A program made the position numbers and the translations under genes. Of a stretch of DNA of 64,000 bases, positions 48,075 to 63,878 are shown one piece after another; position 1 is the stretch's first letter; the number at the start of each line of letters is the position of its first letter. The stretch comes from Friedmanniella luteola (GTDB taxonomy: Bacteria; Actinomycetota; Actinomycetes; Propionibacteriales; Propionibacteriaceae), in assembly GCF_900105065.1 (NCBI RefSeq), contig NZ_LT629749.1, positions 248,001-312,000 of the forward strand, written 5' to 3'. The notes under the pieces are model-generated. The model was not told the origin of the DNA and did not search any database. It saw only the letters and a list, made by a program, of their open reading frames with translations.

Positions 48075-48102
48075 GCCGGCTGAGCGTCCCGCGGCGTCCC
48101 CG

Positions 48103-49272: not shown

Positions 49273-49288
49273 GTGCGCGCTCCCCGAG

Positions 49289-49317
49289 TCGAGTTTTCCC
49301 CCGATCTGGAGTAGCGT
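49289..49317 (+). promoter_or_regulatory. Promoter-like element ahead of the small RNA candidate
   Basis: TCGAGT (49289-49294), 17-nt spacer, TAGCGT (49312-49317). A start site around 49324 would place the 5' end at the base of the long hairpin beginning at 49326. The -35 match is only partial. Confidence 0.4.
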
Positions 49318-49325
49318 GGCGCTCG

Positions 49326-49416
49326 GTTGCCGGAGGGGACGAACCCCCGAGCGTCCTCTCCGACAACTGAATCCGTTGAACCGTCAAGAGCCCCGCGCCC
49401 CAGGCGCGGGGCTCTT
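49326..49416 (+). ncRNA. Candidate small structured RNA
   Basis: Two consecutive hairpins with no coding potential. The first pairs 49326-49341 with 49352-49367: 15 pairs with one C-A mismatch and one G-T wobble. Its 10-nt C-rich loop reads AACCCCCGAG. After an 18-nt linker comes a perfect 14-bp terminator stem (49386-49416). With the upstream promoter-like element this predicts a transcript of about 95 nt. The C-rich loop recalls actinobacterial 6C RNAs, but there are only five C's and the genomic position differs from the known one, so the identity is open. It could instead be an elaborate holB terminator. Confidence 0.5.
49386..49416 (+). terminator. Hairpin terminator after holB / small RNA candidate
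   Basis: AAGAGCCCCGCGCC, 3-nt loop, GGCGCGGGGCTCTT: a perfect 14-bp stem, 113 nt after the holB stop. It would terminate the tmk-holB transcript and the candidate small RNA alike. Confidence 0.7.
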
Positions 49417-49620
49417 GTCGTCGGGCCCGGAGCCGGACGGGGTCGGGCCCAGCGCCCCGACCGGCCTGAGCGCACCCGCAGGCGTGGTGATCACCCGGGC
49501 CGGCGGGCGGGGCCGGCGGCGCGGACACCGGGGACGCCGCCGCTCCCGGCTGCTCCCCGCGGCTGGATCGCGCGGTCGGAGCGCCGGACGGTCACCGATC
49601 CCGCCGGATCGAGGCTGGCG

Positions 49621-49703
49621 GCGACGGATTCCGTCGCTGAGCAGCAAGCGCTTTCCGCCCGTTACGAGGCTATGGATCCTGAGTTGCGTCTGAGAGATCC
49701 ATA
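49621..49703. repeat. Inverted repeats in the rpf upstream region
   Basis: Two elements lie in this non-coding stretch. GCGACGG-att-CCGTCGC (49621-49637) is a perfect 7-bp hairpin. TATGGATC (49671-49678) and GATCCATA (49696-49703) are perfect 8-bp arms 17 nt apart. The second pair, unusually AT-rich for this genome, could be an operator. The remaining sequence from 49417 to 49620 shows nothing I can name. Confidence 0.5.
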
Positions 49704-49723
49704 CCCGTACGGTGTACCCGGTT

Positions 49724-49763
49724 CGTGACCTCTCCGTGACCTGACGGTGTTGGAAGCGTGACC
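49724..49763 (+). promoter_or_regulatory. Three helically phased CGTGACC repeats
   Basis: CGTGACC occurs at 49724-49730, 49735-49741 and 49757-49763. The starts are 11 and 22 bp apart, so all three face the same side of the helix. They lie about 50-85 bp upstream of the riboswitch, where the rpf promoter is expected. Direct repeats of this kind are typical of OmpR-type response regulators such as MtrA, which controls rpf genes in other actinobacteria; the assignment is inference. Confidence 0.5.
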
Positions 49764-49808
49764 AACTGCACGGCCGGTCAGCGCTCGGGGCGCAGTCCGG
49801 AACGCGGT

Positions 49809-49992
49809 CCGTCGCGCCGAGCTTCGCTGGGCGGGCCCCTCGCCGGGACAGTCCCGGGCGCAGCGGAGGTGGAGGAACCACTCGGGAACCCGTCCGCGGG
49901 GACCCTGGGGTGAAGCGCTCGAGCCGTCCAGTTCGGCGAGCGCCGGGCACCTGACTCGCCCGAACCCGTCAGCTAACTTCACAGGCGTCGGT
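49809..49992 (+). promoter_or_regulatory. Cyclic di-AMP riboswitch (ydaO-yuaA motif)
   Basis: The conserved blocks of the ydaO motif are present in order: GCGCCGAGCTTCG at the 5' end, GGAGGAACC, CTGGGGTGAAGCG, and the 3' block CGCCCGAACCCGTCAGCTAA followed by CACAGGCGTCGG. In Streptomyces and other actinobacteria this riboswitch precedes Rpf-type cell-wall hydrolase genes and turns expression off when c-di-AMP is high. Here the 3' end is a few bases from the rpf ribosome binding site. Boundaries are approximate to within about 10 nt. Confidence 0.88.
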
Positions 49993-50003
49993 CAGGAAAG
50001 GTC

Positions 50004-50648
50004 TTGACGACGTTGTTGACGTCCACACTCATGAAGCGCCTCGTCGGCGCGCTGGCCTCGCTGGCCCTCGCCTTCGGCCTCGTCTCCCTCGCCACCCCGC
50101 CCGCCTCGGCCGCCAGCACGGTCTGGGACAAGGTCGCCCGCTGCGAGAGCGGCGGCAACTGGAAGATCAACACCGGGAACGGCTACTACGGCGGCCTGCA
50201 GTTCTCGAGCCGGACCTGGAAGGGCTTCGGCGGCGGCAAGTACGCCTCGCGGGCCAACTCGGCGAGCAAGGCTGAGCAGATCGCCATCGCCCGCCGGGTG
50301 CTGGCCAGCCAGGGCCCCGGCGCCTGGCCCACCTGCGGCCGCAAGGCCGGGCTCAGCAAGAGCAACGGCAAGGCCAGCAAGAGCGCCACGCCCTCGAGCA
50401 ACCCCGGTGCGAAGTCGACCGCCAAGAAGTCGAGCACGAAGAAGGCGTCGAGCACCAAGAAGGCGTCGAGCACGAAGAAGTCGTCCAGCAAGGCCAAGAC
50501 CGTCAAGGTCAAGAGCGGCGACACCCTGGCCAAGATCGCCAAGCGGCACGCCGTCAAGGGTGGCTGGAAGGGCCTCTGGAAGCTCAACAAGAAGGCTCTG
50601 AAGAACCCCAACCGGATCAAGGTCGGCCAGGTCCTCCGCCTGCGCTGA
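50004..50648 (+). CDS. Secreted resuscitation-promoting factor-like protein with LysM domain
   Basis: 214-residue secreted muralytic enzyme. The signal peptide ends at PASAAS (about residue 37). The Rpf transglycosylase-like domain (about 38-112) carries catalytic Glu48 in CESGGNW and two Cys likely to form its disulfide. A Ser/Lys/Thr linker with tandem repeats leads to a LysM domain (KVKSGDTLAKIAKRHA, about 168-213). It is under a ydaO riboswitch, so c-di-AMP probably limits cell-wall remodelling. A TTG start at 50004 is chosen because AGGAAAGG (49994-50001) precedes it; ATG 50031 has no site. Confidence 0.88.
   Translation: MTTLLTSTLMKRLVGALASLALAFGLVSLATPPASAASTVWDKVARCESGGNWKINTGNGYYGGLQFSSRTWKGFGGGKYASRANSASKAEQIAIARRVLASQGPGAWPTCGRKAGLSKSNGKASKSATPSSNPGAKSTAKKSSTKKASSTKKASSTKKSSSKAKTVKVKSGDTLAKIAKRHAVKGGWKGLWKLNKKALKNPNRIKVGQVLRLR
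50430..50483 (+). repeat. 18-bp tandem repeat inside the rpf linker
   Basis: Three consecutive copies of an 18-bp unit (tcgagcacgaagaaggcg and near-identical versions) encode SSTKKA-type repeats in the linker between the Rpf and LysM domains. Copy number may vary between strains. Confidence 0.75.
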
Positions 50649-50692
50649 CCACCTGGCACGGGTGGGACCTGCCCCCCAGAACGCCCACCCGA

Positions 50693-50726
50693 GGAAGCCC
50701 GGCAGACCCGCATCTGCCGGGCTTCC
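50693..50726 (+). terminator. Hairpin terminator after the rpf gene
   Basis: GGAAGCCCGGCAG pairs with CTGCCGGGCTTCC: a perfect 13-bp stem with an 8-nt loop, 44 nt after the stop codon. Confidence 0.7.
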
Positions 50727-50804
50727 GCCCGTCCCGGACCACCGGGTGCCGCGAGCCGGGGCCGGCCGCGTCCCGCGGCGGTGGTCCTGCGGGTCGGAGG
50801 GTCC

Positions 50805-50810
50805 TAGGGT
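50805..50810 (+). promoter_or_regulatory. -10 element of a leaderless PSP1 promoter
   Basis: TAGGGT, 6 nt, then the ATG at 50817, without a ribosome binding site. Confidence 0.5.
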
Positions 50811-50816
50811 GAGCCC

Positions 50817-51755
50817 ATGGCTCGGGTGATGGCGGTCTCGTTCGAGCGCTACGGGCGTCTGCACTACCTGGACCCCGGTGAGCGGGACTACCGCGTCGGG
50901 GACCACGTCCTCGTGCCCACCGAGGCCGGGCCCGAGGTGGCGGAGTGCGTGTGGGCGCCCGAGTGGGTCGACGACGACGGCTTCTCCGGTCTGCCCGTCT
51001 GCGCCGGACCCGCCGAGGAGGTCCACCTCGAGCGCGACGCGGACCACCGCCGCAAGCGCGCGCAGGCCAAGCTGGTGGCCAAGAAGCTGATCCGCGGGCA
51101 CGACCTGCCGATGAAGGTCGTCGGGGTCGACGTCGTCGACTCCGGGGAGCACGACCTGCTGACGGTCCTCTACTTCACCGCGCCGCACCGGGTCGACTTC
51201 CGGGCCCTCGTGGGGGAGCTGGCCCGGGCGCTGCGCAGCCGCATCGACCTGCGCCAGGTCGGCAGTCGCGACGCGGCCCGGTTGACGGGTGGCCTGGGCA
51301 GCTGCGGCCGCGACCTGTGCTGCGCCACGTTCCTCAAGGACTTCGAGCCCGTCAGCCTGCGGATGGCCAAGGCGCAGGACCTGCCGCCGAACCCGCTCAA
51401 GATCTCCGGCGCCTGCGGTCGGCTGATGTGCTGCCTCAAGTACGAGCACCCGCTGTACGCGGAGTTCGCCGCCACCGCGCCCGCCGTCGGCTCGGCCGTC
51501 ACCACCGACGAGGGGGAGGGGGTCGTCATCGGGCACTCGGTACCGGCGGACGCGGTGCTGGTCCGGATGAAGGACAGCGGCCAGGTGTCCAGCTGCTCCC
51601 GCGCCGGGGTCTGCGGCTCGCGGGCGGTCTTCGCCACCCGGACCGTCGCCGAGGAGCCCGAGCCCAGCGCACCGGAGGCAGACGTCCCGGCCGAGACCGG
51701 TCCGGCCGGCAAGCCCCGGACCCGTCGGCGCCGCCGGTCCGGTCCGCCGGCCTGA
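50817..51755 (+). CDS. PSP1-domain protein (RicT/YaaT-like)
   Basis: 312-residue protein with the PSP1 C-terminal domain. Hallmarks are VGVDVVDSGEHDLLTVLYFT, GGLGSCGRDLCC and GACGRLMCCLKYEHP, whose Cys residues help bind an Fe-S cluster in the Bacillus RicT (YaaT) complex. That complex assists RNase Y; in actinobacteria the partners are unclear. The C-terminal 50 residues are Pro/Glu-rich then strongly basic (TRRRRRS), which may contact nucleic acid. Its position near holB is conserved in many genomes. No downstream coupling is seen. Confidence 0.85.
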   Translation: MARVMAVSFERYGRLHYLDPGERDYRVGDHVLVPTEAGPEVAECVWAPEWVDDDGFSGLPVCAGPAEEVHLERDADHRRKRAQAKLVAKKLIRGHDLPMKVVGVDVVDSGEHDLLTVLYFTAPHRVDFRALVGELARALRSRIDLRQVGSRDAARLTGGLGSCGRDLCCATFLKDFEPVSLRMAKAQDLPPNPLKISGACGRLMCCLKYEHPLYAEFAATAPAVGSAVTTDEGEGVVIGHSVPADAVLVRMKDSGQVSSCSRAGVCGSRAVFATRTVAEEPEPSAPEADVPAETGPAGKPRTRRRRRSGPPA

Positions 51756-51792
51756 GCCCCCGCTCGGTCCGGGACTGGTTGCCGGGCGCCCG

Positions 51793-51798
51793 TACCCT
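51793..51798 (+). promoter_or_regulatory. -10 element of a leaderless hydrolase promoter
   Basis: TACCCT, 6 nt, then ATG at 51805. Confidence 0.45.
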
Positions 51799-51804
51799 CG
51801 CTGC

Positions 51805-53388
51805 ATGCCCGCCGCCCGTCGACGCCGCTCCCTGGTGCCCGGGCTCGCCGTTCTGCTGCTGCTGCTCGTCGGCTGCTCGATCCCGGGCGGGGAGCGGGCC
51901 CCCACCTCGTCGCCGGCGCCCGCCACGGTGACGCCGACAGCCCCGTCGCTGCCGGCGGACGGCCGCCCGCTGACCCCGGTGCCCGCCGTGGCGCCGGCCG
52001 GGTTCGCGGACCCGCCGCCCGGCAGCGGGCTGGAGCGGTACCGGGCCCAGACGCTGACCTGGCGGCTCTGCGGCCGCGGCCTGCAGTGCGCCACGGTGCT
52101 GGCCCCGCTCGACCACGCCGACCCCGACGGACAGGCCCTCACGCTCGCGCTGGCCAGGCGGCCGGCCACCTCCGAGCCCCGGCGCGGCACGCTGTTCATC
52201 AACCCGGGTGGCCCGGGCGGCTCGGGCCGGAACTACGTCGGCTACTTCGACGCCGACGGCCTGGAGTCCTACGACATCGTCGGCTGGGACCCGCGCGGGG
52301 TGGGGGCGTCGACCCCGGTGCGCTGCTTCGGCGCCGGTGACCTCGACCGCTACCTGGCCGTGGACGTGTCGCCCGACGACCCCGCTGAGGAGCGGCAGCT
52401 GCTGGCCGAGAACTACGCGTTCGGCCAGGCCTGCCTGCAGCACTCCGGGCCGCTGCTGGAGCACATCAGCACCGAGGCCACGGTCCGCGACCTCGAGCTG
52501 CTGCGACAGCTCGTCGGCGACCCGCAGCTGCACTACTTCGGCGCCTCCTACGGCACCCAGATCGGCGCGCTCTACGCCCAGCTGTACCCCACGACGGTGG
52601 GCCGGATGGTGCTCGACGGGGCGGTCGACCTGGGCGACGAGGAGGTCAGCCAGCTCGAGGGCTTCGAGCGGGCCCTGGAGCACTTCGCCCGCTGGGCGGG
52701 GTCCCCGGCCGCAGGTCAACCGCTGGGCTCCAGCCAGGCGGCGGTGCTGGGCCGCGTCCGCCGGCTGCTCGCGGGACTGGACCAGAGCCCGATGACGACG
52801 TCCGGTGGCCGGGTGCTCACCCAGCAGCAGGGTGTCCAGGCCGTCGTCAACCCGCTCTACGGGCGCGAGCGGTGGCCGGAGCTGCTCCGGGCGCTGGCCG
52901 CGGCCGACGGTGGTGACGGCCGGGCGCTGCTGGCCCTGGCCGACCGCGGCAACGACCGGAACCCCGACGGCACCTACGGCCAGATCAACGACGCCTTCCC
53001 GGCGGTCCGCTGCCTGGACAGCCGGGAGACCAGCGTCGCCCGCGCCGAGCGGGAGGCGGCGCTCCAGGCGGAGCAGGCGCCCGTCCTCGGCCCGTTCTCC
53101 GGCCCTGACCTGATCTGCCCCCTGTGGCCCGTCGCCCCGGCGCCGGCGGCCCCGCGGATCACCGGGGCCGGCGCGGCCCCCGTCGTGGTGCTGGGGACGA
53201 CGGGGGACCCGGCCACGCCGTACGAGAACGCCGTCGGGATGGCTGATCAGCTGGAGTCCGGCGTCCTCGTCACGCTCGAGGGCGAGGGCCACACGGCCTA
53301 CGACCAGAGCGCCTGCGTCCGCGGGCTGGTGCTGCCCTACCTCGTCGGCGGGCCACCGCCCGCCGACGGTTCCCGCTGCGCGGCCTGA
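51805..53388 (+). CDS. Secreted alpha/beta hydrolase lipoprotein (tripeptidyl aminopeptidase-like)
   Basis: 527-residue exported hydrolase. The signal peptide ends in a lipobox (LLLLVGC, Cys near residue 24), followed by a Pro/Thr-rich linker. The alpha/beta fold shows the oxyanion region NPGGPGGSG (about 133-141), nucleophile Ser in FGASYGT (about 251), acidic residue in TTGDPATP (about 470) and His in GEGHTAY (about 495). The C-terminal TAP-like domain with paired Cys matches SlpD/SlpE and CaeA-type proteases of actinobacteria that cleave peptides or esters outside the cell. Its stop is 3 bp from the convergent membrane protein gene. Confidence 0.87.
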   Translation: MPAARRRRSLVPGLAVLLLLLVGCSIPGGERAPTSSPAPATVTPTAPSLPADGRPLTPVPAVAPAGFADPPPGSGLERYRAQTLTWRLCGRGLQCATVLAPLDHADPDGQALTLALARRPATSEPRRGTLFINPGGPGGSGRNYVGYFDADGLESYDIVGWDPRGVGASTPVRCFGAGDLDRYLAVDVSPDDPAEERQLLAENYAFGQACLQHSGPLLEHISTEATVRDLELLRQLVGDPQLHYFGASYGTQIGALYAQLYPTTVGRMVLDGAVDLGDEEVSQLEGFERALEHFARWAGSPAAGQPLGSSQAAVLGRVRRLLAGLDQSPMTTSGGRVLTQQQGVQAVVNPLYGRERWPELLRALAAADGGDGRALLALADRGNDRNPDGTYGQINDAFPAVRCLDSRETSVARAEREAALQAEQAPVLGPFSGPDLICPLWPVAPAPAAPRITGAGAAPVVVLGTTGDPATPYENAVGMADQLESGVLVTLEGEGHTAYDQSACVRGLVLPYLVGGPPPADGSRCAA

Positions 53389-53391
53389 GGG

Positions 53392-53778
53392 TCAGGTGGG
53401 CTGGTCCCCGGTCGTCGCGGCGCCGGTGCCCGGGTCGGTGGTGCCGGGGTCGGTGGTGCCGGGGACGGTGCCCTGGTCACCGGAGCCGGGGGCGGTGCCC
53501 ATCGGCCCCCCGCCGGGGAAGCCGTAGCCCCGCATCCCCCGGCCCTGGTTCTGGCCGGTGCCGGTGGTCGCGGGGTCGGAGGTGAAGGCGTAGGTCGCCC
53601 CGCTGCCGGCGACCAGCCCGACGGTGACGAGCATGGCGCCGGCCAGCCAGCGTCGCGCCTTCGTGCCACCGCCGGGAGGCGTCGCGCGGTCCTCGGTGGC
53701 GGCGGCCGCGCCCGCGGGCCGCACGGGCTGGGTGGTCGGCTGGGTCGGGACGGGGTGGGGGCTCTGCTGCTCGGTCAT
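53392..53778 (-). CDS. Single-pass membrane protein with Gly/Thr/Pro-rich exterior
   Basis: 128-residue protein: Pro/Gln-rich cytosolic tail, one membrane helix (about 47-68), then a low-complexity external part rich in Gly, Thr and Asp with TTDPGTTDPGTG repeats. I recognise no family. The ATG at 53778 is chosen because longer frames run into the tRNA gene region. It is convergent with the hydrolase gene with almost no gap. The repeats at 53430-53470 encode near-identical GTTDP units. Confidence 0.6.
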   Translation of the reverse strand: MTEQQSPHPVPTQPTTQPVRPAGAAAATEDRATPPGGGTKARRWLAGAMLVTVGLVAGSGATYAFTSDPATTGTGQNQGRGMRGYGFPGGGPMGTAPGSGDQGTVPGTTDPGTTDPGTGAATTGDQPT

Positions 53779-53916
53779 GGTCTCGCCTCTCGCCTGACGG
53801 CGCTCGTGGTCGGTGTGCGACCCACTCTCGGGACCGACCCTGTGCGCAGACTGGCCGTCGCCTGGGGATCCGCTGACCGTCCGCTGTGGCTCCCTGTGGA
53901 GCGCCGGTCTCGTCGC

Positions 53917-53946
53917 TTCGACGTGACGGCGCCCGGTCGATATAGT
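53917..53946 (+). promoter_or_regulatory. Promoter of tRNA-Thr
   Basis: TTCGAC (53917-53922), 18-nt spacer, TATAGT (53941-53946). The -10 is close to consensus and AT-rich for this genome, as expected for a stable-RNA promoter. It lies about 38 nt before the tRNA 5' end. Confidence 0.6.
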
Positions 53947-53984
53947 GGGCGACCGTGCGTGAGCGGCCCGCCGCCCGCGCACAG

Positions 53985-54060
53985 GCCGCCTTAGCTCAGA
54001 TGGCAGAGCAACGCACTCGTAATGCGTAGGTCGAGAGTTCGATTCTCTCAGGCGGCCCCA
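53985..54060 (+). tRNA. tRNA-Thr (anticodon CGT), CCA encoded
   Basis: A full cloverleaf can be drawn: acceptor GCCGCCT/AGGCGGC, D stem GCTC/GAGC, anticodon stem ACGCA/TGCGT with loop CTCGTAA (anticodon CGT at 54018-54020, reading ACG), a 5-nt variable region, and T stem GAGAG/CTCTC with loop TTCGATT. The encoded CCA is 54058-54060. The 3' half is repeated 2611 bp downstream and the intervening DNA looks foreign, so this gene appears to have been an integration site. Confidence 0.95.
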
Positions 54061-54061
54061 C
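54015..54061 (+). repeat. Putative attL: 3' half of tRNA-Thr (direct repeat copy 1)
   Basis: 47 bp shared with 56626-56672, offset 2611, with mismatches only at 54021, 54022, 54027 and 54048. An uninterrupted 20-bp identity runs from 54028 to 54047 and a 13-bp identity from 54049 to 54061. At the same offset an 11-bp identity (TCGCACCCCTC, 54086-54096) recurs further out. Integrative elements that use tRNA genes duplicate the 3' end in exactly this way. Confidence 0.75.
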
Positions 54062-54169
54062 TCGAAGCACCTGACCAGCCGGTCATCGCACCCCTCACAC
54101 CTCTGGAACGCGCTGACGGGCTCATCCGGTCGATCCGTCCCCGCCACCATCATCGGCGCCCGGGCCGAG

Positions 54170-54799
54170 GTCGACGACGGTCGCGCTGGGAACGCTGGTG
54201 ACGATCGCAGCGGTCCCGTCTTCGCCGGCCTGCTCGCTCTCGCCGCTCTCCGCGAGATCCCCACCCGAACCTGGATCACCGCCACGAGCCTCGGCGTCGT
54301 CGGCCTGAGCCTCCTGACAGCACGTGGGGCGACGCATCCTGCTGGTGGAGTCGGCCTGTTGCTCGCCCTGACCGCCGGTGCGGCCTACGCCGTCTGCACA
54401 GTCGCAAGCAAGCACATGATCGTGCGCGGCGAGGCGAGTGCCACAGTCATGGGATCGGCGTCCGGTCTCGGCGGCATCCTGCTCGTGCCCATCCTCCTCA
54501 CTCAACCTCTTGCCTGGCTCAGCCAGCCCTCCGGCGTCGCGCTAGCCGCCCATCTGGGGGTCATGGCGACCGGGCTGGCCTACGCCCTGTTCGGACGAGG
54601 TCTGGCGATGCTGCCCGCGGGACCAGTGACGACGCTGATGCTCGCCGAGCCTGTCGCCGCACCACGCCTCGGAGTCACCCTGCTCCGGGAGCCGATCACA
54701 CCCACCGGGTTGACGGGTGCCGCACTCGTGCTCGCCGGCCCCATCCTTCAAGGAGCCGTCGCCACGAGACGAACGAGCAAGGAGCGATCCCGCACCTAG
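54170..54799 (+). pseudogene. EamA/DMT-family transporter, 5'-truncated and frameshifted
   Basis: The remnant encodes the second half of a drug/metabolite transporter. In one frame, TVALGTLVTIAA (54178-54212) matches a membrane segment of the family; a +1 change then puts the continuation PVFAGLLALAALREIPTRTW in the next frame (from about 54215), and this frame stays open through five more membrane segments to 54799. No start codon or first half exists between the tRNA and this point. Truncation at the element border plus a frameshift indicates a non-functional gene. A short protein from an internal TTG (54359) is possible but unlikely to work. Confidence 0.75.
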
Positions 54800-55013
54800 C
54801 GCCAGGCCAGGCCCCATGCGGACCACGGGAGGGTCGCTCCTGGTCGCAGCGCGGTGCAGATCGCGCTCCGCCACGTCGTCGGCTCTGGCAGGGGGTGTCT
54901 TCCCGAGCCGAGAACGGGCGTCACCGCAACCGCGACCGGCAACCTTGACGTGCCCGGAACTGGCGAGGACAGTGTCGAAGAGAGACGTGCGCTTGCAGTA
55001 GGGGTGAGCCGAC

Positions 55014-55529
55014 ATGACGACGACTGGTCCGCCGCCGCTGACCGTTGTGCCGCCCGGCCAGGGGAGTTCGGGAACGTTGGGCTCGATCGGCGTCGACTTC
55101 AAGTTGTGGGGACGTGACACCGGCGGGGCCGTTTCCATAGTCGAGCACCCGTTCCCGGTTGGAGCCCTCGTCCGACCGCACTTGCACACCCGTGAGGATG
55201 AGTACTCCATCGTCACGGAGGGGGAGATCGGCTTCCGATCCGGGGACCGTGAGGCCGTGCTCGGTGCCGGTGGCTACATCACCAAGCCGCGTGACGAGCT
55301 CCACGCGATGTGGAACGCGGGTGCCGTCCCGGCGCGGATGATCGAGGTCATCAGCCCGGCGGGCTTCGAGAACTTCTTCCATGAGCTCTCCGAGCTCCTG
55401 TTGAGCGTGAGCCAGCCCGAGGTCAGCGAGATCGCCGAGCTCGCCGGCCAGTACGGGCTGCAGTTCGGGCAGCCGGACTGGCTCCCGGACGCCATCGCGC
55501 GGTACAACTTGACGCCACTCCCTGAGTAG
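55014..55529 (+). CDS. Cupin-domain protein
   Basis: 171-residue single-domain cupin. Motif 1 reads PHLHTREDEYSIVTEGEIGF (HxH-x4-E-x6-G; metal ligands His, His and Glu), and motif 2 is represented by the stretch PRDELHAMWNAG. The length and the helical C-terminal tail resemble actinobacterial cupins annotated as quercetin dioxygenase-like, but no substrate can be inferred. The ATG at 55014 follows GTAGGGG/GTGAG about 10 nt upstream. It lies inside the putative tRNA-Thr element, and its codons (TTG, CGA, GTT) are less biased than those of the flanking genes. Confidence 0.8.
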   Translation: MTTTGPPPLTVVPPGQGSSGTLGSIGVDFKLWGRDTGGAVSIVEHPFPVGALVRPHLHTREDEYSIVTEGEIGFRSGDREAVLGAGGYITKPRDELHAMWNAGAVPARMIEVISPAGFENFFHELSELLLSVSQPEVSEIAELAGQYGLQFGQPDWLPDAIARYNLTPLPE

Positions 55530-55677
55530 TGACTCCTGATCGCAGTGCCACCTTGAACGCGAGTTCCCCCGGGAGGTCTGACGGCCAGATCCGATGTGCG
55601 CAGCGTGTCGTCGCTCGATGAGCGCGGTCTCGAGAAAGCACCAGGACACGCAGGTCCGTCGCGGAGAGGAGCCTCCG

Positions 55678-56490
55678 ATGCTGGACCTGCTCCCGGCAGC
55701 CGTTCCGGGCTCGGAATCGATGGTCGTGCGCTCGGCGCTCGCGCACGATGACTACCTCATCACGGTGGCGCTGCCCCTCCGTTACGAGGATGAACCCGAT
55801 CGGCTCTGGCCCGTGGTCTACGTCCTCGACGGCAACCTCCACTTCGGTCTCGTCGTCGACATGGTCCGGTTCATGAACATCCGGGTGGAGTTCTGCAACG
55901 AGCTCCCCGACGCGCTCGTCGTCGGTATCGGTTACCCGCCGAGCGGCACCCTGTCGGAGATGCACCACCGCGTCATGCACCTCCGGATGCGCGACTTCGT
56001 GCTCGAGCGGGAGGAGGGTGGCGAGGACTTCATGCAGGAACATTTCCCGATCGCCCGGCGCATCCCGTCCGGCAACGGGCTCCCCTTCATGCAGTTCATC
56101 CGGCAAGAAGTCCTGCCCCTGGTCGAGACGCGATACCGGGCCGATCCTGCCGACCGCACCTTGCTGGGCCACTCGATGGGTGCGAACTTCGCGCTCTGCA
56201 CCCTGTTCCGAGAGCCGGGGCTCTTCCAGCGGTGCGTGGCGGCCAGCTTCGACGCCATCCTGCAGGAGGAGCAGGCCTTCGCCGAGCGTCACTCCAGCCT
56301 GCCTGTGCGCCTGCACCTGGTCTGGGAAGGGCGCAACGACGAGGAGCTCGCGCAGGCACGGCCACTCGTCGACCGGCTCGCAGGTCGCGGCTACCAAGGC
56401 CTCGTCATGACGCAGGAGGTGGTCTCCACCACGCACTGTGCCATGGTCCCCTACGCCTTCCAGTCCGGCCTGACCCACGTCTTCTCCTGA
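55678..56490 (+). CDS. Esterase (PF00756-like alpha/beta hydrolase)
   Basis: 270-residue putative esterase of the antigen-85/IroE-like fold. The segment WPVVYVLDGNLHFG (about 44-57) is the family start of the core. The nucleophile Ser166 is in GHSMG (164-168), an acidic residue may lie in VWEGRNDEE, and the His is in STTHCAMVPYAF near the end. There is no signal peptide, so a cytosolic role is expected; IroE relatives hydrolyse siderophore esters. The ATG at 55678 follows GGAGAGGAG. It is the last intact gene of the putative tRNA-Thr element. Confidence 0.82.
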   Translation: MLDLLPAAVPGSESMVVRSALAHDDYLITVALPLRYEDEPDRLWPVVYVLDGNLHFGLVVDMVRFMNIRVEFCNELPDALVVGIGYPPSGTLSEMHHRVMHLRMRDFVLEREEGGEDFMQEHFPIARRIPSGNGLPFMQFIRQEVLPLVETRYRADPADRTLLGHSMGANFALCTLFREPGLFQRCVAASFDAILQEEQAFAERHSSLPVRLHLVWEGRNDEELAQARPLVDRLAGRGYQGLVMTQEVVSTTHCAMVPYAFQSGLTHVFS

Positions 56491-56625
56491 AGGAGGACCA
56501 CGGCTCGGTTCGGGGGCGTCGAGCAGCCAAGCACGCAGCCGAGCCGGTGCACAACCTGGGCCCTGGCCAACTCGAGCAGGACGCTGGCGAGCGGGGGCGG
56601 TGGCGGTACGGACGCCGCGCTCGCA

Positions 56626-56672
56626 ACTCGTGCTGCGGAGGTCGAGAGTTCGATTCTCGCAGGCGGCCCCAC
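56626..56672 (+). repeat. Putative attR: imperfect copy of the tRNA-Thr 3' half (direct repeat copy 2)
   Basis: Matches 43 of 47 bases of 54015-54061. The change corresponding to 54048 (T to G) breaks a T-stem pair, and no acceptor 5' strand or D arm precedes it, so this is not a tRNA gene. It marks the distal end of the 2.6-kb segment. The divergence between copies suggests the insertion is old. Confidence 0.75.
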
Positions 56673-56797
56673 CCGACCGCCGGGTCAGAGCACCCGTCGC
56701 ACCCCTCCGGTTCCAGGACCGGTGCCCCCCTGCTCGGAGCCGGCTACCAGGGCCGCCGGCACGCTGGCTCCGACCACGGCTGGACGGCTCGACCCGG

Positions 56798-57638
56798 TCA
56801 GGACGTCGACCGCTGGAAGAATCCTGCTTGATGCAGGCGCTCCAGCCGGCGCACCGTGAACGGGTGCGATCTCGGCAGCTGGGCGAGGCCGACCCAGAAG
56901 CCCCGCACCTCCGTGGCCTGCCGGAGCAGGTGAGCGACGTCCACGACGTCCTCGGTGTGGCGTCCCGAAGCCAGGAGCACCAGACCCGCCGCGCCGCTGG
57001 GCGACAGGTGGGCGCCGTGCCGGTCGCAGGAGTACTCGCGCAGCCGGGACAACGTCGGGTCCGAGCACCGGGATGAGCCCGGAGTAGGCGATCGCGACCT
57101 GGTACCACAGCGCCACGTGGTGCAAGCGGATGTGACCCAGCTCGTGCCCGAGGATGAAGTGCAGGCCCTCCCGGTTGCCGTCGTGGAGGTTGACGAACAG
57201 CTCGTTCGACAACACGACGTCGTCATGACCGGTGGCTTGGGCGGCAAACGCGTTCAGCGCGCCGTTGCCGTTCATGAGGAAGAGGTCCGGTCGCCGATCC
57301 AGGCCCAGCACGCGTGCGAACTCGTCGGCCGTCGCGTAGAGCTCCGGGAACTGGTGGGGTGACAGCTCGACGGCGGTCCCGCGCACCGAGGCGCGTTGGG
57401 TCTCCCCGATCACGATCAGCAAGGGGATGAGCAGCAGCAGACCGACGAAGGCGGTCCGGACGGCTGTCGCGACGCTCGTGTCCCGGTAGCGATCCGGGAG
57501 GAACGGCAAGAACAGGGCGAGGTTGACAATCATCGCGACGATGGCGATGTTCAGGACGACCATCACGACGAAGAGCGGCACCTCCGCCGGGTGCCGGAGC
57601 GACTGCTCCGGTCGTGGCTGCCGTGCTCGGGGCGACAT
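56798..57638 (-). pseudogene. M48-family metallopeptidase, frameshifted
   Basis: The first frame (from ATG 57638) has three N-terminal membrane segments and the zinc motif HELGH (165-169), then loses similarity after about residue 193. The family continuation, with SRLREYSCDRHGA carrying the third zinc ligand Glu, is in the next frame and runs to a stop at 56798. The switch point lies in 57052-57062, at a run of three C on the coding strand, consistent with one extra base. The joined protein would be about 280 residues, normal for this family. A sequencing error cannot be excluded. Confidence 0.75.
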
Positions 57639-57923
57639 CGATGGCTCCCGTCGTGCGGTTCGTCGGATGATCCAGGCCTTCCCAGCACCGGCTCCGACGG
57701 GCGCTCGAGCGCGGGGCCGATCATCAAGATCCGGTCAGGGACCGCGGTCCGTGGCGCTCGACACATCGTCACCGAGCCATGACGATTCTCCGACGAGGGG
57801 GTGCTGGCCGGCATCATGCAGATCGCGTGACGCCGCCAGGACGTCGCCCGGGTGGGCACCGGGTCCGCACCGCGTCGCACGCGGACCTGGCTGCTGCGGC
57901 ACGGATCGGCCACAGTGGTCAGC

Positions 57924-58700
57924 ATGAGCGGTCGCACGCCACCTCCCGACCTGTCCGCACGCCAGGCTCACGCCGAGGCCACCTACGAGCGCCTCTTCGG
58001 ACCGCGCGACAGCGGGGCGCCCGACAGCGACCCGGAGCTGATGGAGATCCTGCGCCGCTTCATCTTCGGGGACGTCTTCGACACCGGGGTGCTCGACGAC
58101 CGCTCGCGCGAGCTGATCACGGTCACGGTGCTCGCCTGCCTGCGGGCCCTGCCGCAGCTGCGGACCCACACGGCCGCGGCACTCAGGGTCGGCGTCCAGC
58201 CGGTGGAGATCCGCGAGGCCCTCTACCAGCTGGCGCCCTTCATCGGGTTCCCGGGCACGCTCGACGCGGTCGCCACCATGAACGCGGTGTTCCGCGATCA
58301 CGGCATCGAGCTGCCACTGCCCGACCAGGGCACCGTGTCCGACGCCGACCGCTACGCGAAAGGCCTCGCGGAGCAGGCTCCGTTGTACGGCGACGAGATC
58401 AAGGCCGACCTGGCCGACCTCCCGCAACCGTTCGACGAGGCGCTGCCGCGGTTCCTGACCGAGTTCTGCTTCGGCGACTTCTACACCCGCGGTGGACTCA
58501 CGCTGGCCCAGCGGGAGCTGCTGGTGCTGTGCGGCCTGGCCGCTCTCGGCGACACGTCGGCCCAGCTCGGACCCCACGGTCGCGCGTGCCTCCAGGTCGG
58601 CAACTCCAAGGCAGCCGTGGTCGCCGCGCTGGTCCACTGCTTCCCCTACATCGGGTTCCCGCGCGCCGTGGCCGCCATCCGCGCGGTGAAGGACCTCTAG
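57924..58700 (+). CDS. Carboxymuconolactone decarboxylase-family protein (two CMD domains)
   Basis: 258-residue protein with two tandem CMD/AhpD-like domains (about 25-110 and 150-240). Each has the helical pattern RELITVTVLACLRALPQLRTH or RELLVLCGLAALG... and an IGFPG/IGFPRA turn. The CxxC redox pair of AhpD is absent, so a peroxidase role is not supported; double-CMD proteins often act as decarboxylases or have unknown function. The ATG at 57924 is chosen over a start 24 codons earlier whose extra residues look non-coding. Confidence 0.8.
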   Translation: MSGRTPPPDLSARQAHAEATYERLFGPRDSGAPDSDPELMEILRRFIFGDVFDTGVLDDRSRELITVTVLACLRALPQLRTHTAAALRVGVQPVEIREALYQLAPFIGFPGTLDAVATMNAVFRDHGIELPLPDQGTVSDADRYAKGLAEQAPLYGDEIKADLADLPQPFDEALPRFLTEFCFGDFYTRGGLTLAQRELLVLCGLAALGDTSAQLGPHGRACLQVGNSKAAVVAALVHCFPYIGFPRAVAAIRAVKDL

Positions 58701-58843
58701 CGACGTCGGTGGGGAGCCCGTCGCGGGCGGCTCTGCCACGCTCCGGACCTGAGCGGGACGCGGGACCAGCCGGCCTGGCACCACCGTCACGACGACCCGG
58801 ACTCCGCGCTGTCCTGGCGGTTGCAGCGGGCGCTGCCGGCTGC

Positions 58844-59887
58844 TCAGTGCGACGTCGGCGGCACGTCCACGGTGGTCCCCTCAGCGGCGCTGCGGCGGGC
58901 CGCGTCCAGCACGGTCGCCGTCGCCACGGCGTCCCACGGGTCCACGGGGACGGCTGCCGTGCCGCGGACGGCAGCGGCGAACTGCTCGTAGAACTGGTCC
59001 CACCGGCCGCGCTCGCTGGGCACGGCCTCGCTGCCGGTGCTGCGGTGCAGGGTTCCCCAGGCCGTCTGCGGCTCGCGACCCCAGGCGGCACCCTCGCCTG
59101 CCGGGGTGCGGCCGGCCACCAGGGCGGCTTCCTGTCCGTCCATCGACGTGACGACGAAGGTGGCGTCACGCCCGCTCAGCCGGAAACGCGGCCTCGGCGC
59201 GCTCTGCCGCCAGGCCCCCGAGACCTGGGAGCGGACCCCGCTGGTGTGCTGCAGCAGCACCAGCACGTCGTCCTCCGACTCCGGACCCACCGCGTGCGTC
59301 TCGGCGTAGACCCGGCGCACCGGCCCGAAGAGGTGCAGGGCCTGGTCCACCAGGTGACTGCCGAAGTCGCGCAGCAGGCCGCCGCCGGCCGCCGGCGGCT
59401 CGGGCTCCGGCGCCCACCGTTCGAAGGCCGACTCGAAGCGGCGGACCTCGCCGAGGCGGCCGGCCTCCAGCAGCCGCCGGATGGTCAGCAGGTCGGAGTC
59501 CCAACGCCGGTTCTGGTAGGGGGTGACCAGCACGCCTTCGCGCTCGGCCAGCTCCACCGTCTGCCGGGCGGCCTGCGCGTCCAGCGCGAACGGCTTGTCG
59601 CAGACGACCGGGAGCCCGCGGCGGAGCAACCCTTCCGTCACGGCGGTGTGGGTCGCGGCGGGCGTGCAGACCGTGACGGCGGACACCCCGGCCGCGACCA
59701 GGTCGTCGACCGTGTCGAACACCGCCACCTCGGGATGGTCGTGCGCCAGCTCAGCGCGCCGGTCCGGTGAGCGGGTCACGACCCCGGCCAACGCGCAGCC
59801 TGGCGCGCTGGCGATCAGCGGAGCGTGGAAGTACCGCCCCCCGAAGCCGTAGCCGACGAGTCCGATCCTCACCACGGCGTCGCTCAC
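58844..59887 (-). CDS. Gfo/Idh/MocA-family oxidoreductase
   Basis: 347-residue NAD(P)-dependent dehydrogenase-like protein. The Rossmann motif is GLVGYGFGGRYFHAPL (about 9-24); the VCDKPFALD segment (about 92-100) supplies the family EKP-like Lys, and YQNRRWDSD (about 122-130) is typical of the YvaA/scyllo-inositol dehydrogenase-like subgroup. The C-terminal beta-sheet domain is complete. The substrate is probably a sugar or inositol derivative. The GTG at 59887 overlaps the stop of the nucleotidyltransferase gene (GTGA), so the two are coupled. Confidence 0.87.
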   Translation of the reverse strand: MSDAVVRIGLVGYGFGGRYFHAPLIASAPGCALAGVVTRSPDRRAELAHDHPEVAVFDTVDDLVAAGVSAVTVCTPAATHTAVTEGLLRRGLPVVCDKPFALDAQAARQTVELAEREGVLVTPYQNRRWDSDLLTIRRLLEAGRLGEVRRFESAFERWAPEPEPPAAGGGLLRDFGSHLVDQALHLFGPVRRVYAETHAVGPESEDDVLVLLQHTSGVRSQVSGAWRQSAPRPRFRLSGRDATFVVTSMDGQEAALVAGRTPAGEGAAWGREPQTAWGTLHRSTGSEAVPSERGRWDQFYEQFAAAVRGTAAVPVDPWDAVATATVLDAARRSAAEGTTVDVPPTSH

Positions 59888-60705
59888 GGCGGCATCGTAG
59901 GGCCACGCCCGCTCCGGGGCACGAGCGCGGGCCGTGGGGGCGCTCCGTGGGGGGCGGCGCTGAGGACCAGCTCCTCGAGCGCCGCCTCGAGCCCGGCCGG
60001 GACCGGGAGGGCCTGGTGGGCGGCTTCGGCCAGCAGCAGGGCGGTCAGCACGCGGAAGGTGTGGTGGAGGGCGGCGGGGTCGGTCGTGGGCGTCAGCGTC
60101 GCGGCCAGCTCGGCCCGGACGGCGGCGGGCAGTGCGTCGACGCCGCGGCCCTCGTGGGTCGGCAGGTCGTACCGCCGGCAGTACAGCGCGACGAGCTGGT
60201 TGCGCAGGCCCTCCAGCATCCAGACCGCTTGCCAGCTCCGGCCGCGGGCCAGGGCCGAGCGGGCGTGCAGCGCGTGCAGCCACCCGCTGCGGAGCGGCTC
60301 CATCGCGTCGGGACGCGACCGCGGGTCGGTGGTGGTGTCGTCGGCCCGGCCGAAGAGCAGCCGGACCGGCGCCCCGCCGGTGACCAGCCGGCCGTGCGGC
60401 CAGAACGACAGGTCGACCTGCAGCGTCGAGGCCAGCAGGAACACCCGGTACAGAGCACCCGAGGCGTGCACGTCGAGCTGGTCGACGACCGCTTCGTGCT
60501 GCCGCAGCTGCCGTGCCCACTGGTCGGCGACCTCGCCCGGGTCGGCCCCCGGGGTGAGCCTCAGGGCGAGGTCGATGTCGGACCAGCGGTCCTCCTCCCC
60601 ACGAGCCGCCGAGCCGAGCAACGCGGCCGCGTCGACCTGCGGATCCTGGCGGGCCGCTGCGACCAGACGGGTGCGCAGCACCTCCCGGTCACCGACGCTG
60701 AACAT
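59884..60705 (-). CDS. Nucleotidyltransferase-domain protein
   Basis: 273-residue protein. The N-terminal polymerase-beta-like nucleotidyltransferase fold has LLGSAARGEEDRWSDIDLAL (GS...D-x-D, about residues 25-44), with a third Asp in LQVDLSFW near residue 95. A helical C-terminal half resembles the substrate-binding part of minimal nucleotidyltransferases. Relatives include aminoglycoside-type adenylyltransferases and AMPylating toxins, but no HEPN partner is adjacent. The ATG at 60705 is chosen because the frame upstream lacks coding character. It is coupled to the oxidoreductase gene. Confidence 0.75.
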   Translation of the reverse strand: MFSVGDREVLRTRLVAAARQDPQVDAAALLGSAARGEEDRWSDIDLALRLTPGADPGEVADQWARQLRQHEAVVDQLDVHASGALYRVFLLASTLQVDLSFWPHGRLVTGGAPVRLLFGRADDTTTDPRSRPDAMEPLRSGWLHALHARSALARGRSWQAVWMLEGLRNQLVALYCRRYDLPTHEGRGVDALPAAVRAELAATLTPTTDPAALHHTFRVLTALLLAEAAHQALPVPAGLEAALEELVLSAAPHGAPPRPALVPRSGRGPTMPP

Positions 60706-60974
60706 GGCGCCCAGCCTGGCACCGTCACCCGTCCCCGGAGCGAGGGAGGTGGAGGTGTCGCGCCCTGCTCTCCGGACCCAGCGCTCCGCACCGCCCCTCG
60801 GGCCGGGTCGGTGAGGTCGGGGCGGGGCTGCCGGTGCGCAGCTGCCGGCCGGATCGACACCCTGGCGCCAGGCGACGGCCACGGGGGGCCGCCACCCTCA
60901 CCGCGGGCGACGACGGAGGCGGCGCGGCCCGTGCACGTCACCGGTCGGGCGCCGGACTCCCACCCCGGGGTCGG

Positions 60975-61538
60975 TCAGAGGTTCGAGCAGTACCGCACCG
61001 CCGACGACGTCTTGACGTACTTCGCCCTGACCCACCTCGAGGTGCTGGTCAGGTACCACTTCTGCCCGGAGTCGGTGTAGCACTGGACCCGGAACCTCTG
61101 CCCCTTCGCGTAGGTGCCGGCGCTGGTGTCGGCGGTGGTCGGACCGAGCCGCTTCTTCAGCGCGGCGGTCGTCCGGGCCGAGAAGGTGCCGTCGCTCGGG
61201 TCGCAGGGCTCCGGGGCCGGCCCGACGTTGCGCACGTAGCGGGCGGACACCCAGTTGGCGTCGCCCTCGGCGACCACGAGGTACCAGCGCGGGTTCCCGC
61301 CGACCACGGGGCCGGGCACCTTGCAGTCCAGGGTCACCGCGGACCCGTTGGGGAAGGTGTAGTTGGCGGGAGCGTGGGTGCTCGGGCGGACGTGCCCGAT
61401 CAGCCCTCCCTTCGCCACCACGACGCCCTTCGCGGACGGCTCGACCGGCGCTGCGGAGGCCGGGGCCAGGGGGAGGGCGAGCGTGGCCGCGACGGCGGCG
61501 GTCACGGTCAGGGCGGTCTTGACGGTGCTGCGGTACAT
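60975..61538 (-). CDS. Secreted protein with SH3-like repeats
   Basis: 187-residue exported protein. A Sec signal peptide (about 1-29, ending APASAAP) is followed by two bacterial-SH3-like segments of similar pattern: NPRWYLVVAEGDANWVSARYV (about 83-103) and QKWYLTSTSRWVRAKYV (about 157-173). The Cys residues are suited to disulfides. Such domains often bind cell-wall peptides; no catalytic domain is present. The ATG at 61538 lies behind AGAGGACC. It is flanked by 269 bp and 232 bp of sequence in which I see no gene. Confidence 0.75.
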   Translation of the reverse strand: MYRSTVKTALTVTAAVAATLALPLAPASAAPVEPSAKGVVVAKGGLIGHVRPSTHAPANYTFPNGSAVTLDCKVPGPVVGGNPRWYLVVAEGDANWVSARYVRNVGPAPEPCDPSDGTFSARTTAALKKRLGPTTADTSAGTYAKGQRFRVQCYTDSGQKWYLTSTSRWVRAKYVKTSSAVRYCSNL

Positions 61539-61770
61539 GCCAGGTCCTCTCGACACGGCGCTGCCCGGGGCGAGCAGTGCACTGCTGACAGGAGCGCCCG
61601 CCCGGGCACCCTGATACCGCCCGTGGCTGCGTGGCTGCGTGACGCCCGCACCGCGGTCTTCCGTCCCGATCTGCCCGGCGATCGCACCGCCCGCTCGGCA
61701 GGGTCGACCCGCACAGCCGCGTACAGGGCGCGTGACAGGGGACGGACAGGCGGCCTTGGGACGGTGAGGC

Positions 61771-61983
61771 ATGCGCCCGGTGGAGAACACGGACCCGGAT
61801 CGACGACCGGCGACGCCGGACGCCAGTGGGGAGGCGATCAGCGGGCAGCGTCCCCCCGCGCGTGAGGCGTTGGACCAGCTGGCTGAGCGTCGCCACCGGC
61901 GGAGGGCCCTCGCGGCGGCGGGTGCGGCGAGGGCCGGTGGCGCACCCAGCCTGGCGGTGGTCCTGCTGGGGCCGAGCTGGTGA
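61771..61983 (+). CDS. Small basic hypothetical protein
   Basis: 70-residue protein, Arg/Ala-rich, with REALDQLAERRHRRRALAAA in the middle and a short hydrophobic end. No domain is recognised. GGTGAGG lies just upstream of the ATG, and its stop overlaps the GTG of the next gene in the usual GTGA manner, which is the main argument that it is real. Codon bias is weaker than in neighbouring genes. Confidence 0.45.
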   Translation: MRPVENTDPDRRPATPDASGEAISGQRPPAREALDQLAERRHRRRALAAAGAARAGGAPSLAVVLLGPSW

Positions 61984-62525
61984 GCTGCTCGGGCCGGGCC
62001 GACGACGGCCTCGGGGCGCCCGGCCGCGCGCCGGGGCGTCGGGACGGACACGTGGCCCCGACGGGCCGGGGCGCGGTGCCGCTCACGCGCTACTCGGCAC
62101 GACGGACCGCGCTCGGCGCGGCCGCTCGGATCGACGCCTTCGCCGAGCACGCCGGGCAGTTCGAGGAGGGACTGGCCCTGCTCGACGAGCTCGACCGGCG
62201 CTGGGGGCCCGGCGGAGAGCTCTCGGCGCTGCTCGCAGCGCCGGTCGGGACGGCGTCGAGGACCTCCTGGGACACCCTGCTCCTCCTCACCCTGTCCGGG
62301 GCCGGCCTCGAGCTCGACCTCGCCCACCAGGCCGTGCGACGCCTCCAGCCGGTGACGCCGCCGACGCCGGACGTCCAGCACCTGGTCGCCGCCCGGCTCG
62401 TCGAGCAGGAGCTCGGCGACGCGGGCTGCGTCTGCGCACGCGTGGCCGTCGGCGCTGCCGTGGCGGGCACCTCGCCGGCGGGCGACGCCGGACCCGGCGG
62501 AGATGCCTGGAGGCCTACCCGCTGA
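61980..62525 (+). CDS. Hypothetical protein
   Basis: 181-residue soluble protein with a helical central region (FAEHAGQFEEGLALLDELDRRW, positions 51-72) and no recognised domain, signal peptide or membrane segment. Third-position GC bias is strong across the whole frame, supporting coding. The GTG overlaps the stop of the 70-residue gene upstream. The neighbours downstream (DUF2382 protein and GAF protein) suggest a stress-related cluster, but no function can be assigned. Confidence 0.6.
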   Translation: MSCSGRADDGLGAPGRAPGRRDGHVAPTGRGAVPLTRYSARRTALGAAARIDAFAEHAGQFEEGLALLDELDRRWGPGGELSALLAAPVGTASRTSWDTLLLLTLSGAGLELDLAHQAVRRLQPVTPPTPDVQHLVAARLVEQELGDAGCVCARVAVGAAVAGTSPAGDAGPGGDAWRPTR

Positions 62526-62637
62526 GTCAGGTACCGAACGGGTACCCCACCCCGAGATCCCCTCCGGGACCGCCGGCGGCCCTGCCGCCGCGGTCCTGCG
62601 CACCGCCCGAACGCACCGCCTCGTCCCCAGGAGCCCC

Positions 62638-63042
62638 ATGACCACCGCTGAACCCGCCTCGGCTGCCGACCTCGACCGGACGGGGGAGTCGCCGTCGGTG
62701 CTCCGTTCCGAGGAGCAGCTGCGGGTCGGCGTGCGCACCCAGGCGGTGGGCCGACTGCGGATCCGCAAGCGCGTGGTCACCGAGGAGGTGACGCGGACGG
62801 TCACCGTCCGCCGCGAGGAGCTCGTGGTCGAGGAGGAGCCGGTCGAGCCGGGCGTGGGCGCCGACCACCAGGTGGGTGACCGCGACCTGGAGATCGTGCT
62901 GCACGAGGAGCAGGTCGAGGTGCACACCGTGGTCGTCCCCGTCGAGCGTGTGGTCGTCCGCGTCCGCCGGGTCGAGGGCAGCGCGGCGGTCGCCGAGGTG
63001 GTTCGCCGCGAGCGGGTCGACCTGGAGCAGGACCCACGGTGA
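62638..63042 (+). CDS. DUF2382-domain protein (YsnF/AvaK-like)
   Basis: 134-residue protein with one DUF2382 domain: LRSEEQLRVGVRTQAVGRLRIRKRVVTEEV... repeated Val/Glu/Arg beta-hairpins covering residues 22-125. In actinobacteria and Deinococcus-group bacteria such domains accompany stress-response proteins; the molecular role is unknown. This copy lacks the PRC-barrel domain that often precedes it. CAGGAG lies upstream of the ATG at 62638. The stop overlaps the GTG of the GAF gene (63039-63042), so the two proteins are made together. Confidence 0.82.
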   Translation: MTTAEPASAADLDRTGESPSVLRSEEQLRVGVRTQAVGRLRIRKRVVTEEVTRTVTVRREELVVEEEPVEPGVGADHQVGDRDLEIVLHEEQVEVHTVVVPVERVVVRVRRVEGSAAVAEVVRRERVDLEQDPR

Positions 63043-63851
63043 TCGACCAGGCCCCCGCCGTCCCCCGGCTGGACGGCGCCGCCGTGACGAGCCTGGCCGA
63101 CGGGTCCTCCTCGACCCGCGAGGCGTGGCTGGAGGCGTCGGTCGAGCTCGGCGCGCAGCTGCTGCACGTCGAGGACGCCGTGGTCCCGGTCGTCCGGGCC
63201 GTCGTCGAGCACGTCTCGCGGTTGGTCCGGGCCCGCACCGTCACCTTCGTCGGCCCGAGCAAGATCGACGAGGGCCACTTCGAGGTCCGGCTGGCCGTCG
63301 GGGCCGGCGCCGACGACCTGATGGGCAAGACCTACACGAAGACGGGCACCCTCGAGGGACGCACGATGCAGGAGAACCGCGGCTTCGTCGGCTCGGCGGG
63401 GACGAGCCACTGCCACCACCAGGACACCCGCGACGAGCAGCCGGCCGGTCCGCTCCTCGCCGTCCCCCTGGACGGACCCGGCGGCATGCGCGGCGCGATC
63501 GTCGCCAGCCGCTGGGCCGGCCAGGCCGCCTTCAGCGAGTTCGACCTGGCCATGGCCCAGGACTTCGCGCGGCAGTCGAGCATCGCCCTCCGGCTGGCCC
63601 AGGGTCAGGCGAGCTCGGAGCAGCTCCGGTTCCACGAGCAGCGCGAGGCCGAGCTGCACCAGCTGCACGACGACCTCATCCAGCAGCTCTTCGGCCTCGG
63701 GGTCACGCTCGAGTCGCTCCGCAAGCAGGCCGGGACGCCGGCCGGCCAGCCGGCACCCGGACCCCGCTGGGACCAGGCCACCGGCCAGATCGACGGCCTC
63801 ATCGCCCAGCTCCGCGCGACGCTCACCGCTGCCCCCGACGCCGACGGCTGA
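63039..63851 (+). CDS. GAF-domain protein with a histidine-kinase-like dimerisation tail, no ATPase domain
   Basis: 270-residue protein. A GAF domain spans about 35-190 (LLAVPLDGPGGMRGAIVASRW is its later strand region). The C-terminus has a coiled helix ending ELHQLHDDLIQQLFGLGVTLESL (about 206-228), which closely resembles the HisKA_3 H-box of DevS/DosT kinases (LHD...IQ.LF..G). The catalytic ATPase domain is absent and the frame ends soon after. The GTG overlaps the DUF2382 stop. It may be a sensor that dimerises with a complete kinase or a phosphotransfer protein; His in LHDD is the candidate site. Confidence 0.75.
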   Translation: MIDQAPAVPRLDGAAVTSLADGSSSTREAWLEASVELGAQLLHVEDAVVPVVRAVVEHVSRLVRARTVTFVGPSKIDEGHFEVRLAVGAGADDLMGKTYTKTGTLEGRTMQENRGFVGSAGTSHCHHQDTRDEQPAGPLLAVPLDGPGGMRGAIVASRWAGQAAFSEFDLAMAQDFARQSSIALRLAQGQASSEQLRFHEQREAELHQLHDDLIQQLFGLGVTLESLRKQAGTPAGQPAPGPRWDQATGQIDGLIAQLRATLTAAPDADG

Positions 63852-63878
63852 CGCCCCGACGCCCGAGCCCGGCGCCGG

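Follow-up and report, generated by a model that had tools for sequence, protein, structure and literature searches.

Cis-mobilizable elements (CIMEs) are elements that have lost their genes for integration and transfer and have kept attL and attR, and a three-step model of accretion has been proposed; both are set out in PMC5704250. Genomic islands in tRNA genes have been collected by Islander, for which PMC4383910 gives anticodon-centered att sites in 2083 of 3919 islands. In the actinobacteria, a survey of integrative and conjugative elements reports that AICEs with pSE211-type integrases target a tRNA-Thr gene (PMC3218068).

Here we describe an interval at a tRNA-Thr(CGT) gene of Friedmanniella luteola, lying in a window of 64,000 nucleotides (contig NZ_LT629749.1) that was analyzed as a whole. 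The interval resembles a CIME in that it carries cargo only and no integrase, is flanked by att copies at the 3' end of a tRNA gene, and lies at a site where related genomes have such copies in a row. Att sites are found at both of its ends, the distal one with 4 changes in 47 bp, and genes for integration or transfer are absent between them: an integrase was not found by hidden Markov model (HMM) search, and the frames are those of an EamA transporter, a cupin, and an esterase. Unlike a CIME, it has no partner element, one of its att copies has diverged, and its descent from an ICE or IME is putative. It also resembles the tRNA islands of Islander in having an intact tRNA gene with a 3' fragment downstream on the same strand and an anticodon-centered att site. 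However, no integrase was detected between the tRNA and the fragment, and Islander tests its candidates for an integrase gene (PMC4383910), so that this interval would presumably have been filtered out. With the pSE211-type AICEs, it shares tRNA-Thr as the target in Actinomycetota (PMC3218068) but differs in that no int, rep, or tra gene was seen, the frames present being the three named above. Among the papers listed by a literature search on Microlunatus, genomic islands, and tRNA-Thr, there was nothing that we recognized as this site, which is no proof of its absence from print.

A second copy of the tRNA-Thr(CGT) 3' half

An earlier note on this DNA, made from the sequence alone, had claimed that a 47-bp repeat of the tRNA 3' end and its flank recurs 2611 bp downstream with four mismatches and that a further 11 bp match at the same offset beyond it. 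Direct comparison bears out both statements. Positions 54015-54061 and 56626-56672 differ at 54021, 54022, 54027, and 54048; stretched to 51 bp (54015-54065 against 56626-56676, spacing 2611), the repeat acquires a fifth difference at 54062 and is identical at 46 of 51 positions. It comprises the last 46 bases of the tRNA and the flank that follows (Table 1), and the additional 11 bp, TCGCACCCCTC, stand at 54086 and 56697. The runner-up 51-mer on either strand of the window reaches 26/51, and a search of the genome (4,717,514 bases in one contig) found the repeat at two places only.

The anticodon loop (CTCGTAA) starts one base inside the left edge of the distal copy, whose right edge coincides with the 3' end of the tRNA. 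The changes at 54021 and 54022 are on the 3' side of the anticodon loop, and by standard tRNA numbering we place that at 54027 in the 3' strand of the anticodon stem. Of the distal changes, which the earlier note saw as breaking the T stem, one of the four does so: that at 54048, which disrupts a T-stem pair. ARAGORN called no tRNA at the distal copy.

Table 1. Features at and to the right of tRNA-Thr(CGT), in window coordinates
Feature	Position	Strand	Basis
Intact tRNA-Thr(CGT) gene, with the proximal att copy as its 3' half	53985..54060	+	ARAGORN
Repeat copy in the tRNA gene and its flank (proximal att site)	54015..54065	+	Repeat comparison
Flank right of the tRNA, like the flank right of the distal copy	54061..54105	+	3/5000 shuffles, 6/4957 random window pieces
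EamA transporter, 5'-truncated, open to the tRNA junction	54062..54799	+	PF00892, 7.3e-17, one EamA domain
Cupin-domain protein, 171 aa, open	55014..55529	+	PF07883, 5e-11
PF00756 esterase (alpha/beta hydrolase), 270 aa, ATG at 55678	55678..56490	+	Pfam
Second repeat copy (distal att site; 3' fragment displaced from tRNA-Thr)	56626..56676	+	Repeat comparison
Low-G+C segment, possible second eroded element	56677..58750		Pfam, G+C, flank alignment
M48 peptidase, apparently frameshifted	56798-57638	-	Pfam
CMD-family gene	within 57852-58700	+	Pfam
Rest of the region differing from the closest relative, host-like G+C (75.7%); contains Gfo/Idh oxidoreductase, nucleotidyltransferase, secreted SH3-like protein (by eye), DUF2382 protein, and GAF-domain protein (weak match)	58751..63857		Synteny, G+C

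Genes and composition of the interval

Pfam agrees with the EamA, cupin, and esterase identities given in the earlier note, which had regarded the EamA gene as decayed. Its frame is open from 54062 to the stop at 54797-54799, and its N-terminal part is missing; we therefore call it truncated at the tRNA junction, not broken by stops. The cupin and esterase, which the earlier note suggested may be useful cargo that was retained, have open frames, that of the esterase extending over 55594-56490, and esterase searches were run from 55594 or 55675.

At the thresholds used, the esterase (E 1e-20) and the EamA protein (E 1e-40) were each found in their own genome only among 293 genomes; the 1e-40 cut-off is strict, and weaker relatives of EamA may thus exist. 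Within the genus, the best-scoring other match to the esterase was 33% identical at E 9.4e-20, just short of 1e-20 (G008), and a 33-residue match at 61% was seen in G016. A scan of genome contigs confirmed no esterase relative, and the 174 plasmid records that matched were all below 60% identity, the eight listed being at 25-32%. With no esterase relative in the contig scan and, at these cut-offs, none of either protein in the 293 genomes, there is no parent element with which the interval can be compared. Of the 391 genomes of the order, 34 (counting its own) had matches to the cupin at E 1e-15, with the best, at 73% identity, in other families. In the 19 loci examined outside its own genome, cupin homologs stood without the esterase or EamA (tblastn, E 1e-5), within only ~1.5 kb per side (nine of these loci were printed at 2.2-3.5 kb).

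The interval is low in G+C, with 68.2% between the copies where pieces of the same length outside average 75.0% (standard deviation, 2.2%); equally low values were found at one other place within 79 kb (pieces starting at 69301-69501). By segment, G+C is 75.3% upstream, 70.6% in 56677-58750, and 75.7% beyond 58750. The codon use of the three genes had been described as less GC-biased, and their GC3 values (EamA, 0.79; cupin, 0.87; esterase, 0.87) are indeed below the median of 0.958 for 58 mechanically picked open reading frames (ORFs) outside. For the cupin and esterase the bias is only mild, because both fall within the range of the other picked ORFs, between their 10% (0.833) and 25% (0.909) points.

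Copies at the same site in relatives

Fifty-seven genomes were searched, and the corresponding stretches were examined for 23, including that of the window; in 17 of these the CGT tRNA was complete and lay on the expected strand. Three of the others have the anticodon TGT (G006, G007, and G012) and three had no tRNA called (G005, G008, and G016), and these were left out of the set. In six other genomes, the tRNA-Thr(CGT) 3' half of the genome itself recurs in a total of 11 second copies (three each in G002 and G038, two in G019, and one each in G004, G024, and G044), all of which start 0 to 2 bases from the anticodon loop and stop at the tRNA end. Further matches in G050, G053, and G056 suggest that there are more.

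For a second set, the best 80 of 158 named loci were taken, all of them around an upstream gene that is conserved. The tRNA-Thr(CGT) was present in 66 of these, and 13 of the 66 held a total of 15 second copies, which start 0 to 5 bases before the loop and end 0 to 2 bases before the tRNA end. The figure of 13/66 is a lower bound because the downstream sequence covered ran from 96 bases to at most ~10 kb (median, 8.0 kb). Five loci match genomes of the first set (L111, L112, L114, L115, and L140); none of them is among the 13 that bear copies, and no copy was thus counted twice.

With that of the window, the two sets give 27 copies, all downstream of the tRNA and on its strand. As a control for orientation in both sets, upstream copies were sought in ~0.88 million bases and inverted copies were also sought, and neither was found. 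Copies in a row were present in G002, G019, and G038 and also in L163 and L169. In G038, an array of four tRNA-Thr 3' halves, the gene itself included, extends across 26.7 kb (L036 and L037).

Together with the integrases beside this tRNA in relatives, the edges and orientation of the repeat form the footprint of a shared hotspot with anticodon-centered att sites for integrases. The agreement of the edges of the second copy with those of the 26 other copies supports the view that these are the remains of a site-specific integrative element.

Integrases at tRNA-Thr(CGT)

An integrase gene or fragment adjoins tRNA-Thr(CGT), with its C terminus toward the tRNA, in 8 of the 17 genomes: G002, G019, G015, and G024, as well as G044 (a fragment), G004 (a 125-amino-acid frame), G001 (at a contig end), and G018 (a remnant; E 1.8e-5). 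In these relatives the integrase lies just inside the tRNA end, and G038 has one beside its second copy. The hotspot integrases are not all of one type: the first G019 integrase resembles its counterparts in G024 (76%) and G044 (66%), and the G002 integrase resembles the second in G019 (69%). Of the 66 named loci, 20 have an integrase-like frame whose start is less than 1 kb from the tRNA, and three of these (L111, L112, and L115) are already among the 8 genomes. The tRNA-adjacent integrase of G024 (L039) appears to be in two pieces, with frames between them that look transposase-like by eye. In G018 the C-terminal remnant (L033:3851-4345) is directly beside tRNA-Thr and is followed by what appears by eye to be a sugar ABC-transporter operon.

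An HMM based on the sequences of 8 integrases of the hotspot, run with hmmsearch --max and E values up to 1, had no match in the window, leaving the first 10 kb after the tRNA (54-64 kb) without an integrase trace, and a short BLASTP search for an integrase remnant over the same 54-64 kb gave nothing credible (best E, 0.12). On these two results a hidden remnant in 54-64 kb was rejected. The same HMM matched in 5 of 13 genomes searched (G024, G004, G044, G001, and G018); G024, G004, and G044 are no control for it because their sequences are in the model, and those of G001 and G018 are not. The genome has 13 PF00589 matches, and the nearest among the 9 listed is ~70 kb away. The search thus bears out the earlier statement that no integrase is left in the interval. 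Its further claim, that an integrative element entered at tRNA-Thr(CGT) and has since lost its integrase, is supported by the 26 edge-matching copies and by the integrases beside the tRNA in many relatives.

In the named loci with a second copy, the interval between the tRNA and the first copy contained an integrase-like frame in 6 of 13 (L127, L129, L130, L147, L169, and L173) and none in 7 (L122, L128, L141, L163, L174, L177, and L188), a count made with a small local HMM that is likely to miss some, and with L128 ending ~0.2 kb past its copy. Since seven of the 13 show none, an integrase-less att interval is not rare at tRNA-Thr(CGT). In L141, L177, and L188, an integrase-like frame lies 0.07 to 0.7 kb beyond the distal copy.

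A 28-base att core occurs in four IMG/VR contigs, in two of them 16 bases from the end of the stretch, and the integrase HMM matched one of the contigs only (L194), ~11 kb from the core. A small frame that looks repressor-like by eye reads across the core in three (L192:1-336, L193:1-342, and L194:12307-12636). Some phages have attP inside a repressor gene, and these frames recall them.

Synteny and the sequence beyond the distal copy

The closest genome, G018, is syntenic with the window from 34203 to 54073 at 80 to 88% and then again from 63858. Between the two blocks (54074-63857), 9.8 kb in the genome of the window stands against 33.5 kb of other DNA in G018, with no similarity by blastn or tblastn except the tRNA fragment. 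Because synteny resumes only at 63858, the 2.6-kb repeat-flanked part is only the tRNA-proximal part of a longer differing stretch. The earlier note had proposed looking for an empty site in relatives, and none was found joined to the right flank of the window; G018 has one tRNA copy with other DNA to its right. In G017, 8.2 kb is present at the tRNA where G003 joins the shared flank directly (80 to 83% identity), and no repeat was detected in G017. The two genomes are an empty/filled pair for the site and not for the element in the window.

The earlier note had also taken the element to end at the distal copy, which need not be the outer end, given where synteny with G018 returns, the low G+C of 56677-58750, the apparent frameshift in the M48 peptidase, and the likeness of the right flanks. 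The peptidase appears to be split into two frames, the N-terminal part over the Pfam cut-off and the C-terminal part just below it, and is therefore probably a pseudogene. The CMD and GAF genes were considered as ancestral right-flank markers and set aside, having no orthologue beside the tRNA in the genus; the CMD gene is 79% identical at another place in G019. The nucleotidyltransferase (59884-60810) has an MntA-antitoxin match below the curated cut-off and a 44% relative in the G017 insert at the same tRNA (L044:2326-2769).

It is possible, at somewhat less than an even chance, that the distal copy is the tRNA-side end of a second, older element with remains out to ~58750 or 63857, whose outermost att copy has eroded. 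The flanks to the right of the two copies align over 36 gapped columns (Table 1), and those to the left do not align (421/1000). In G019 an att copy precedes the integrase end of the next element, so the likeness of the right flanks is a hint that a second, eroded element starts at the distal copy, although the similarity is short and only moderately significant. Such serial accretion is also favored by the low G+C that runs on to ~58750, the apparently frameshifted M48 gene, the return of G018 synteny only at 63858, the serial copies in the five relatives named above, and the integrase-like frames just past a distal copy in L141, L177, and L188. Against it, no third att copy rose above shuffles out to 10.2 kb in the stretches tested and none was found in the genome, and the HMM detected no integrase to the right of the distal copy in the first 10 kb after the tRNA. 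The likeness of the right flanks counts against a simple attL/attR pair, which need not show it.

Proposed origin

We conclude that 54015-56676 is very probably what decay has left of one or more integrative elements inserted into the tRNA-Thr(CGT) gene at its 3' half, a CIME-like islet; this explanation and the accretion of a second element are not mutually exclusive. The conclusion draws on the repeat with its edges and orientation, the composition of the interval, the lack of a detected integrase, and the use of the same site by relatives. The filled site of G017 beside the empty one of G003 and the core in the IMG/VR contigs also speak for it. Points against it are the absence of an integrase trace inside, the failure to find an empty site joined to the right flank of the window, the likeness of the two right flanks, the second place with equally low G+C, the ordinary range of cupin and esterase GC3, and the single, distant integrase match in the IMG/VR contigs. 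From these we infer an order of events. A tyrosine integrase would have recombined the tRNA gene, at its anticodon-loop end, with an attP in which the tRNA 3' half was present as a copy, so that the element would have restored the tRNA and the displaced 3' half would have stayed at the far end. A deletion may then have taken the integrase and the 5' part of the EamA gene, and what remained would be a CIME-like islet in which the truncated EamA is followed by the cupin and the esterase. The former presence of the integrase is likewise something that we infer, since the interval holds no trace of it.

An alternative is that the interval never had an integrase and was an att-flanked passenger that integrated, and was able to leave, through the integrase of a co-resident element. 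The 7 of 13 named loci without a detected integrase between the tRNA and the first copy speak for such a passenger, but integrases can escape an HMM made from 8 local sequences, the truncation of EamA at the tRNA junction fits a deletion, and integrase fragments occur at the same place in G004, G018, and G044, and we regard this alternative as unlikely. We are similarly doubtful of a broader reading in which short passenger segments (0.6 to 9.4 kb in the named loci), flanked by att sites and lacking an integrase, form a recurrent class at the tRNA-Thr(CGT) gene of Actinomycetota, the interval in the window among them, and are moved by the integrases of elements landing in the outer att copy; the basis for it is that 3 of the 7 integrase-negative named intervals have an integrase-like frame 0.07 to 0.7 kb past the distal copy. 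A segmental duplication of the tRNA 3' region or a chance resemblance, with no integration at all, is highly improbable and was rejected on edges and orientation. In its favor, the similarity runs past the tRNA into the flank; against it, the anticodon loop marks the left edge both here and in the 26 other copies, no copy is upstream or inverted, and the next best match in the window is 26/51.

Implications

The interval at 54015-56676 is best filed as a decayed, CIME-like genomic islet, a kind already known. Island finders that require an integrase gene would miss such intervals. The tRNA-Thr(CGT) hotspot recurs across several actinobacterial groups, and one decayed islet is added to it here; the base rate, a second tRNA 3' half in at least 13 of 66 named loci, is the more useful figure.
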